The notes beneath the pieces were generated by a model. The model made no database searches and had not been told where the DNA came from. It was given only the letters and a program-made list of their open reading frames with translations. Shown here piece after piece: positions 8,986 through 11,155 of a DNA stretch of 64,000 nucleotides (positions are counted from its first letter, which is position 1; the number at the start of each line of letters is the position of its first letter). The DNA is from Marinifilum sp. D714 (lineage in GTDB: Bacteria; Bacteroidota; Bacteroidia; Bacteroidales; Marinifilaceae). The position numbers were made by a program, and so were the translations under genes. The DNA lies in NCBI RefSeq assembly GCF_030851345.1, contig NZ_JALPNU010000003.1, forward strand, positions 1-64,000. Reading direction: 5' to 3'.

Positions 8986-9894
8986 TTAAAATAGCTCCTC
9001 TATCGAGAGATACCTTTCTCCTGTATCGTAATTAAAGGTAAGAACTGTTGCATTAGCTTCAACTGAGTTTAGTTGCTTGCTAACAGCAGCAAGTGATGCT
9101 CCGGTTGAAATACCTGCAAGTACACCTTCTTTAACAGCTAGTTCTTTTACTTTAGCAAAAGCCTCTTCTTTACTTACCTGAATTGCACCATCGAGTATTT
9201 CTGTATTTAAGTTTTTAGGTATAAAACCTGCACCAATACCTTGCAATGGGTGAGGTCCTGGCTGGCCTCCGCTAATTACAGGTGATGCCTCTGGCTCTAC
9301 AGCAAATACTTTAAGATTTGGAAATTGCTTCTTTAAAATTTCAGCAACTCCACTAATATGGCCTCCTGTTCCAACACCTGTTATCAGATAATCTATACCT
9401 TCAGGAAAATCTGCTATAATTTCCTCAGCGGTAGTAGTTCTGTGAATTTCAACATTGGCCTCATTGTCAAATTGTGATGGCATCCAGGAATTAGGATTGC
9501 TAGCAATTAACTCTTCGGCCTTTTCAATTGCACCTTTCATTCCCAATTCTCTTGGTGTAAGCACAAATTCGGCTCCATATGCAGCCATAAGACTTCGTCT
9601 TTCAACCGACATTGATTCAGGCATTACCAAAATTAACTTATATCCTTTAACAGCAGCTACCATAGCCAATCCAACTCCAGTATTTCCAGAAGTTGGTTCA
9701 ATAATTATTGATCCTTCCTTTAGAGATCCATCTTTTTCAGCTGTCTCTACCATAGATAATGCAATTCTATCTTTAATACTACCCGCAGGATTCGACCTTT
9801 CAAGTTTCATCCATACATTAGCTCCATTAAATATTTTATTAAGTTTTACTACTGGAGTATTTCCAACTCCTTCTAAAATATTGTTCAGTTTCAT
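8986..9894 (-). CDS. cysK: Cysteine synthase (O-acetylserine sulfhydrylase) CysK
   Basis: A 302-residue fold-type II PLP enzyme that makes L-cysteine from O-acetylserine and sulfide. The PLP lysine is Lys41 in NPAGSIKDR. The substrate loop [16 protein letters not shown] and the phosphate-binding [10 protein letters not shown] are present. Length matches the family. It is the second gene of the cysE-cysK operon, 11 bp after the serine acetyltransferase, behind a poly-cysteine leader ORF. It should act in the cytosol as the last step of sulfur assimilation. Confidence 0.95.
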
Positions 9895-9905
9895 TTGGTT
9901 GATAT

Positions 9906-10745
9906 TTAAATTTGAAAATTGATAATTTTACTTTCATCAAGGTTTGTTCTAACCTTAGTTTCATGCTTGTGATAAACGATACTGTTTGATTCTACACTAG
10001 AAGTTAACCAAACATTACCTCCAATAATGCTGTTCCGTCCAATTACAGTATCACCACCTAATATCGTAGCACTTGAATAAATAATTACATTATCCTCCAC
10101 GGTAGGGTGTCTTTTCTTCTTGGCTAAGCTTTTTTTAACTTGTAATGCTCCTAAAGTCACCCCTTGATATATTTTTACATTGTTCCTTATTATTGCAGTT
10201 TCACCGATTACAACACCAGTTCCATGGTCTATAAAAAAAGATTCCCCGATTGTTGCCCCAGGATGAATGTCAATACCTGTTTTTGTATGAGCATACTCAC
10301 TCATGAGTCTAGGAACAGTAGGAACTCCAAGTCGATGCAAGACATTACTTAGACGATATACCATTATTGCAAAAAAACCAGGATAAGCTATTATTACTTC
10401 ACCAATAGTTTCCGCAGCAGGGTCAAATTTTTGTATTGCCTCAGCATCTTTTAAAAGTGCGCGATAAACCGATGGTATTTCTATCATAAAATCGTGTGTG
10501 ATTTCTTCAACTGATTTCTTCAACTGAAAGTTTACAGGTAATAACAAGAGCTTTAAAGTTGATTCCATTTGATAAAGCAAAGACTCTTCTGCACAACAAC
10601 TCTTACTTCTCCTGGCACTAATAGGAAATAGGGTGTTCATGGCTTCTTCAACAAATCGATGTGCAAGATCTCTTGCAGGCATGTCAATTTCATTGTTGTT
10701 TCTGGAAGCTTGTAATTCATCCATTACTTTACTTAAATAACTCAT
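9906..10745 (-). CDS. cysE: Serine O-acetyltransferase (EpsC/CysE type)
   Basis: This 279-residue enzyme makes O-acetylserine from serine and acetyl-CoA, the substrate for the adjacent CysK. An alpha-helical N-terminal half is followed by a left-handed parallel beta-helix of hexapeptide repeats (from about [14 protein letters not shown] to [10 protein letters not shown]). The catalytic His is in [12 protein letters not shown]. The form is the long SAT version common in Bacteroidota. It is first in the operon, 93 bp downstream of the leader ORF, and thus likely controlled by it. Confidence 0.93.
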
Positions 10746-10783
10746 TGCTTTTATGATTTTTAATGTATTGATACGTAATTATT

Positions 10784-10807
10784 TAGGTAAACTTATAAGT
10801 AAACCTA
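10784..10807. promoter_or_regulatory. Imperfect 24-bp dyad between leader ORF and cysE
   Basis: A dyad with outer arms TAGGT/ACCTA and a perfect inner palindrome ACTTATAAGT, interrupted by two AA/AA mismatches. It lies 39 bp upstream of cysE. It may be a protein-binding site or a weak hairpin. No T-run follows, so it is not an intrinsic terminator. Confidence 0.35.
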
Positions 10808-10815
10808 TGAGGGGA

Positions 10816-10878
10816 TTGTTAGTAAGATTGATTATCTACTAACAACAGCAACAGCAACAACAGACTTGATTGTTGTTG
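10816..10878 (-). promoter_or_regulatory. Two hairpins flanking the poly-Cys codons (putative attenuator)
   Basis: Hairpin A has arms CAACAACA (10878-10871) and TGTTGTTG (10862-10855), 8 bp with an 8-nt loop; its 3' arm is made of the first Cys codons. Hairpin B has arms TTGTTAGTA (10845-10837) and TACTAACAA (10824-10816), 9 bp with a 12-nt loop; its 5' arm holds the last Cys codons and the stop codon. A ribosome paused on Cys codons would open A and, depending on position, B. There is no U-tract, so control would be translational or Rho-dependent rather than by an intrinsic terminator. Confidence 0.6.
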
Positions 10879-10994
10879 TATCCAAACCTTTGGGAATAAT
10901 TTGAAAAGGATTGTTGAATTGAATGCACACCCAATGCAATCGAAGAAGTTCGATCTGATTGTTTGGTTCTGATATGCTTTAAATTCCTTTTCAT
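10839..10994 (-). CDS. Poly-cysteine leader peptide of the cysE-cysK operon (51 aa)
   Basis: An ORF of 52 codons starts at ATG 10994 (MKRNLKHIRT) and ends QV followed by seven consecutive Cys codons (TGT TGT TGC TGT TGC TGT TGT) and TAG at 10841-10839. It lies directly upstream of cysE on the same strand. A -7 box (TAAGTTTG) 17 bp before the ATG predicts a very short 5' UTR. A C-terminal Cys run just ahead of the cysteine biosynthesis genes is what a cysteine-sensing leader peptide would look like. Polycysteine leader ORFs acting this way are known in mycobacteria. Function here is inferred. The ORF is too short for ordinary gene callers. Confidence 0.75.
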   Translation of the reverse strand: MKRNLKHIRTKQSDRTSSIALGVHSIQQSFSNYSQRFGYNNNQVCCCCCCC

Positions 10995-11011
10995 TTTGAA
11001 GTTTCTAGAAG

Positions 11012-11019
11012 CAAACTTA
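11012..11019 (-). promoter_or_regulatory. -7 box of the cys leader/operon
   Basis: TAAGTTTG on the minus strand fits TAnnTTTG. A TTG lies 16 nt upstream (11038-11036), a little closer than usual. Transcription would begin near 11005, about 11 nt before the leader ATG. Confidence 0.55.
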
Positions 11020-11155
11020 AAAAAAATAAATTAAACAAGACTCTTAAGTCTGAATATTTCTGTAAAAAAAATGTTATTTATTTTAGCCATGTAAAAAAAT
11101 AACTTTAACGAGCTTTTTTATTACTTTTAGTATTAGTAACATAAACTAACTGAAA

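Follow-up and report, generated by a model that had tools for sequence, protein, structure and literature searches.

A Cys-run leader ORF in front of cysE and cysK

The DNA analysed here (the window) is the first 64,000 nucleotides of contig NZ_JALPNU010000003.1 of Marinifilum sp. D714, and a short ORF ending in a run of Cys codons lies on its minus strand upstream of two genes of cysteine synthesis. The features of the locus, in the order in which they would be transcribed, are as follows:

11012..11019, minus strand: presumed -7 box TAAGTTTG, Bacteroidota type, with 17 nt between the box and the leader ATG
10994-10839, minus strand: leader ORF of 51 codons encoding MKRNLKHIRTKQSDRTSSIALGVHSIQQSFSNYSQRFGYNNNQVCCCCCCC, with seven terminal Cys codons and then TAG
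10842..10862, minus strand: the seven Cys codons, proposed sensing codons, abutting the leader stop
10746..10838, minus strand: gap from the leader ORF to cysE, 93 nt, G-poor, without an intrinsic terminator
9906..10745, minus strand: cysE, serine O-acetyltransferase (best NCBIfam model TIGR01172, 2e-47; 161 bits, below the model cut-off of 211)
8986..9894, minus strand: cysK, cysteine synthase A (TIGR01139; 413 bits, above the cut-off of 351)

The spacing from cysE to cysK is 11 nt. An earlier note on this DNA had described the ORF, its seven Cys codons, the TAG, the 93-nt gap and the -7 box, and all of these were re-read as described; we take TAAGTTTG to be a Bacteroidota -7 box from the consensus of such boxes. 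One short ATG ORF with at least five consecutive Cys codons occurs in the window, and none occurs in 200 dinucleotide-preserving shuffles. Five consecutive TGY codons are found at 7 distinct sites in the genome, and the leader site is the only one of them without a larger overlapping ORF in another frame. The leader ORF (10839..10994) matched no NCBIfam family, and no Rfam family reached its gathering threshold in the window.

Directly upstream of the leader promoter there is also an inverted repeat, AGACTTAAGAGTCT, at 11038-11051, which is possibly a regulator site; some near relatives have dyad-like counterparts of it.

Conservation of the leader among close relatives

A family-wide search for cysE covered 56 genomes, 30 of which gave a match with an E value no higher than 1e-40. 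The Cys-run ATG leader is intact in all 22 family genomes in which cysE identity is at least 73%, ending 89-104 nt from cysE, and it is absent from the other 8 of the 30 matched genomes (cysE identity 51-60%). A second collection, made up of the best 80 loci, held 8 close relatives with cysE identity of 77-91% (Marinifilum, Labilibaculum, Ancylomarina and two further records, unnamed or MAG), and the leader is present in all 8, which are partly the same genomes as those of the family-wide search. For the comparison of leaders, 22 distinct sequences were used, 21 from the family search together with L003, the duplicate L089 being left out.

Across these 22 leaders, TGT and TGC replace each other in the Cys columns, and Tyr, Ser or Trp codons turn up there rarely. 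Among 13 chosen leader pairs, dN/dS was 0.14-0.86 in 11 and undefined in one that had no synonymous change; the remaining pair (L088/L092) gave 2.80 and weighs against the explanation that we favour below. The position of the sensing codons is also kept: the last CC is separated from the stop by 0-1 codons in all but one of the 22 leaders; the exception, L097, has 7 codons from the last CC to the stop and its last single Cys 1 codon before the stop. The -7 box is TAAGTTTA in L086, and each of the other 21 leaders has TAAGTTTG or TAGATTTG. Downstream, cysK adjoins cysE at all 21 family loci with a leader that were checked (all but L091), and it also does so in L104, though that locus has no leader.

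Two loci deserve separate mention. L102 has twelve consecutive Cys codons followed by FTSCC, with the frame kept. In L105 (G037, contig 22), the cysE match comes in two pieces, one with internal stops, and the leader is intact; the split is possibly an assembly error.

The earlier note had asked for ORFs ending in Cys runs in relatives, with synonymous drift and kept Cys codons, and this is what the relatives have, with 22 of 22 frames intact. The opposite case that it named, a decaying CAA/ACA repeat with broken frames, has no instance here, as no frame is broken among the 22. That the Cys-run leader is kept in close relatives means that it very probably measures cysteine supply.

Folding of the leader RNA

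The leader ORF is more stable than the mean of its shuffles in 22 of 22 sequences (z -0.8 to -4.2), and folding of the gap relative to shuffles is inconsistent (z -2.3 to +0.6). Three predicted hairpins have to be considered:

10938..10955, minus strand: hairpin H1, 7-bp stem and 4-nt loop, inside the leader ORF; it covaries and was absent from the earlier note
10855..10878, minus strand: hairpin A, formed by Asn codons and the first Cys codons; part of the consensus built from 21 sequences
10816..10845, minus strand: hairpin B, spanning the leader stop; clear in just six sequences, namely the window and five near relatives

RNAalifold on the whole alignment gave hairpin A alone, which is why an ungapped alignment was used to test H1. 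This alignment held 16 of the 22 sequences, L091 (a near copy of L090) and five sequences of one clade being omitted; the omitted five have a stem at the H1 position with a different loop, weak in L101. In the 16 sequences, 98.2% of H1 cells are paired (84.3 in shuffles), 16 cells are changed on both sides (5.9 in shuffles), and the covariation score is 0.452, compared with 0.187 for shuffles and at most 0.102 for slid versions. The two weaker of the five measures are the pairs with two-sided changes (4 of 7, with 2.2 in shuffles; 7 of 500 shuffles reach this) and the further pair types (8, with 6.7 in shuffles; 73 of 500 reach this). Some caution is due, since the bases of H1 also encode a partly conserved peptide and since related sequences can inflate such scores; thus peptide constraint and shared descent may contribute to the H1 covariation scores.

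The earlier note had, as we read it, proposed hairpins A and B, flanking the Cys run, as a switch. Both fold locally in the window (-10.2 kcal/mol for A and -11.0 kcal/mol for B), and to this extent the description stands. Hairpin A is in the RNAalifold consensus of 21 sequences, but its changes are one-sided and none is two-sided. For the stem of hairpin B, folding energies are -6.7 to -13.3 in the window, L003, L084, L085, L086 and L105, whereas the same region in the other 16 of the 22 gives -1.6 to -6.6 with different pairings. Hairpin B was rejected as the switch, not being kept beyond near relatives, and the hairpin that covaries is H1; the proposed switch of A and B is not supported.

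Terminators and antiterminators

No intrinsic terminator was found in the gap of the window, and the scan of the stretch from leader to cysE was negative at 21 of the 22 leader loci and gave one weak site at the other, L103; the suggestion that the leader works without an intrinsic terminator is borne out to this extent. No leader-gap pairing common to all 22 was found either. A long-range antiterminator between leader and gap was rejected, since such stems are clade- or species-specific only, for example one of 10 bp in L087.

Elsewhere in Bacteroidota, Cys leaders upstream of cysE do come with terminators. Within 500 nt upstream of cysE, a sense-strand short ATG ORF with CCC occurs in 18 of the best 80 loci (the 8 close relatives and 10 of 72 others), and on the opposite strand in 1 of 80. 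A wider survey took 141 cysE upstream regions outside the close family, namely the 72 from the best-80 collection and 69 of the 70 match rows from other genomes in a class search (29 and 40 loci, G426 left out), which possibly overlap with the 72; some of its distances are too short, as the cysE start was set at the furthest upstream in-frame ATG. By the scan, 14 of the 141 regions combine a terminator-like site with a Cys-rich short ORF, 25 have the site alone, 18 have the ORF alone, and 84 have neither. The terminator follows the Cys ORF in 10 (L027, L048, L055, L070, L074, L132, L137, L141, L168 and L171), L168 being without adjacent Cys codons, and four more with terminators missed by the scan were read by eye (L025, L028, L133 and L045, the leader of L045 being nearly identical to that of L070). 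Apart from L168, these are the loci, about 13 of 141, in which a leader with adjacent Cys codons has an intrinsic terminator.

Pairing of the antiterminator type, between the RNA from the Cys codons to the terminator and the 5' arm of the terminator, scored at or below 0.05 in 9 of 12 loci (300 mononucleotide shuffles, uncorrected; L048 stands at exactly 0.050, and L025, L055 and L132 lie above). With a ribosome stalled at the first CC, minimum-energy folds replace the terminator by the antiterminator in 3 of 13 (L027, L055 and L074), and the terminator hairpin persists in the other 10, as it may in an equilibrium fold, which disregards the order of transcription. The terminator-bearing leaders share little beyond their Cys codons, and 3-14 codons separate the last CC from the stop in 12 of them, compared with 0-1 in nearly all leaders of the window's clade. 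We read the terminator-bearing cysE leaders as ordinary trp-like attenuators tuned to cysteine.

Leaders of the classical kind are also present in the genome of D714 itself, where gene names were taken from Pfam families and leaders and terminators were identified by eye:

L193, before hisG: His-rich leader MKFIALHHRHHHFTYPQVS with a U-tract terminator
L194, before trpE: Trp-rich leader MFGLNSKYWWWYNCNLSNTMSGSVLPMC with a U-tract terminator
L197, before ilvD: Ile/Val-rich leader MLSFNVIIIVIIISIVIIRMRIREDVHIQ with a U-tract terminator
L200, before the prephenate dehydratase gene: two tandem Phe-rich leaders, MNRVHTNRFFFFFSI and MRTIFSFSFFFSFFFFGDEKDRILMV, each with its own intrinsic terminator

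A second match to Anth_synt_I_N (L195) has no such leader upstream, and two homoserine dehydrogenase matches are uninformative on leaders, since the region upstream of one (L198) looks coding and the sequence read at the other (L199) stops short of its true start. Amino-acid leaders are thus in use in this organism, and among those examined in its genome the cysteine leader alone has no terminator.

Base composition and Rho

The genome encodes Rho (PF07497, 6.4e-35). In all 22 leaders, the middle has an excess of C over G at or beyond the 96th percentile, as measured against 571 coding windows taken from the window, a bias that may stem from the encoded amino acids. C minus G in the gap is 0.118 in the window and 0.00 to 0.118 across the 22, which is moderate beside the 141 regions upstream of other cysE genes, where the mean is 0.009, the sd 0.071 and the 90th percentile 0.10. 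Before the Cys codons of 12 terminator-bearing loci, C over G ranges from -0.095 to 0.296 on short stretches, and the bias at this position is not special to terminator-less leaders. In the genome of D714, the values are 0.05 for the hisG leader and 0.018 for its gap, and -0.034 for the trpE leader and 0.034 for its gap.

Discussion

The best reading of the leader ORF is that of a predicted ribosome-mediated sensor of charged tRNA-Cys. We consider it somewhat probable that the terminal Cys codons sense charged tRNA-Cys in such a way that stalling turns cysE-cysK on, and that with plentiful cysteine the transcripts end before cysE. In this mechanism, transcription would start directly upstream of the leader ORF, and H1 may pause RNA polymerase, letting the ribosome catch up. 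When cysteine is short, the ribosome would stall in the Cys tract, and cysE-cysK would be expressed; when cysteine is plentiful, it would get to the adjacent stop and depart, and most transcripts would end before cysE. Termination might be the work of Rho, loading on leader or gap RNA that is poor in G, and a ribosome stalled beside the stop would block this. Rho is a tentative candidate for the termination factor, suggested by the base composition and by the lack of alternatives. The whole mechanism is supported by the 22 of 22 kept leaders, their synonymous drift, the covariation of H1 and the missing terminator, by the terminator-bearing Cys leaders of other Bacteroidota and the classical leaders of the same genome, and by the C-over-G excess in the leader middle, the presence of Rho and the constant predicted accessibility of the cysE start. 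What the earlier note had called a cysteine-responsive attenuator without a terminator is thus retained in its conserved Cys leader and absent terminator, and is changed in that hairpins A and B are not supported as its switch.

Four other explanations were weighed. It is unlikely that the leader acts by translational attenuation, with the position of its ribosome opening or closing the cysE start site and transcription running on, even though no terminator is present here and, in the part of the source available to us, translation attenuation is named as the mode of regulation of the M. smegmatis cysteine genes (PMC13236596). The predicted accessibility of the cysE start over 22 sequences is 0.55 with no ribosome, 0.56 with a stalled one and 0.56 with one at the stop; being constant across ribosome states, it led us to reject sequestration of the start, and the missing common pairing between leader and gap speaks against this account as well. 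We have less confidence still in a weak or unusual intrinsic terminator, whereby hairpins of the gap would halt RNA polymerase without a U-tract: such hairpins are predicted before cysE in most sequences, differing in sequence by clade, and L103 has its weak terminator-like site, but gap folding is not consistently more stable than in shuffles and the other leaders of the genome have strong U-tract terminators. Arrest of the ribosome by the nascent peptide itself, with cysteine or a related compound as the signal, seems improbable. In its favour, two of the three clades have NNNQ, or something close to it, ahead of the Cys run; the third has other residues there, and the classical leaders elsewhere have little but Cys codons in common. 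A TGT/CAA triplet repeat without function can be dismissed almost entirely, since the frames are intact in 22 of 22 with TGT and TGC mixed and the CCC ORFs favour the sense strand, even if the twelve-Cys run of L102 suggests repeat expansion.

Considering the known systems, attenuators of the trp and his type have a leader peptide containing codons for the product of the operon. The cysE leader likewise has codons that match its operon's product, but neither an intrinsic terminator nor a common antiterminator was found in the Marinifilum clade, so that of the classical attributes it shows the pathway codons alone. The tnaC leader of E. coli senses free tryptophan through its peptide, in which it differs; the likeness is that the access of Rho would depend on a ribosome close to the stop of the leader. 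Canestrari 2020 reportedly names a leaderless start for a Cys leader in its title; the Marinifilum leader ATG comes 17 nt after its -7 box, which may be a difference. Lopatovskaya 2010 is said to treat attenuation across bacteria and could contain a prediction of a Bacteroidota cysE leader. A full-text literature search, mostly reaching titles and abstracts, found no description of such a leader.

The nearest counterparts are in Actinobacteria, where, in the part of the source available, Cys-run leaders near a stop and without terminators were predicted in 2005, with Rho suggested, for the cys operons of Mycobacterium and Propionibacterium acnes and for cbs of Bifidobacterium longum (PMC1262725). 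They share with the Marinifilum leader the Cys run near the stop, the position before cysteine genes and the lack of a conserved terminator; they differ in phylum and, as far as that part goes, in the covarying hairpin that Marinifilum has inside its ORF. The uORFC-8-2 motif before cysS in Rhodobacterales, in the portion of its description available, is a Cys leader that ends in an intrinsic terminator (PMC8632094); its first leader stem also contains Cys codons in tandem, but the motif has a terminator and controls cysS, whereas the Marinifilum leader has none and stands before cysE. Within Bacteroidota, the accessible passages mention leader-peptide attenuation upstream of amino-acid operons in Flavobacterium psychrophilum (PMC9723704) and, in B. 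thetaiotaomicron, short ORFs that resemble leader peptides (PMC7366714). The earlier claim that nothing of the kind had been described in this phylum thus holds for cysE in the literature searched, and the F. psychrophilum report tells against its wider form.

We tentatively suggest, as a possibility on which we would place less weight than on the mechanism above, that the clade of Marinifilum, Labilibaculum, Ancylomarina and their relatives is terminator-less at this locus and has converged with Actinobacteria on a Rho-gated, H1-timed leader with its sensing codons set against the stop. The locus offers a natural comparison inside one genome, in which His, Trp, Ile/Val and Phe leaders with terminators stand beside one without, and a concrete test case for Rho-dependent leader control in Bacteroidota. 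More than one phylum would then use a run of Cys codons to sense cysteine.
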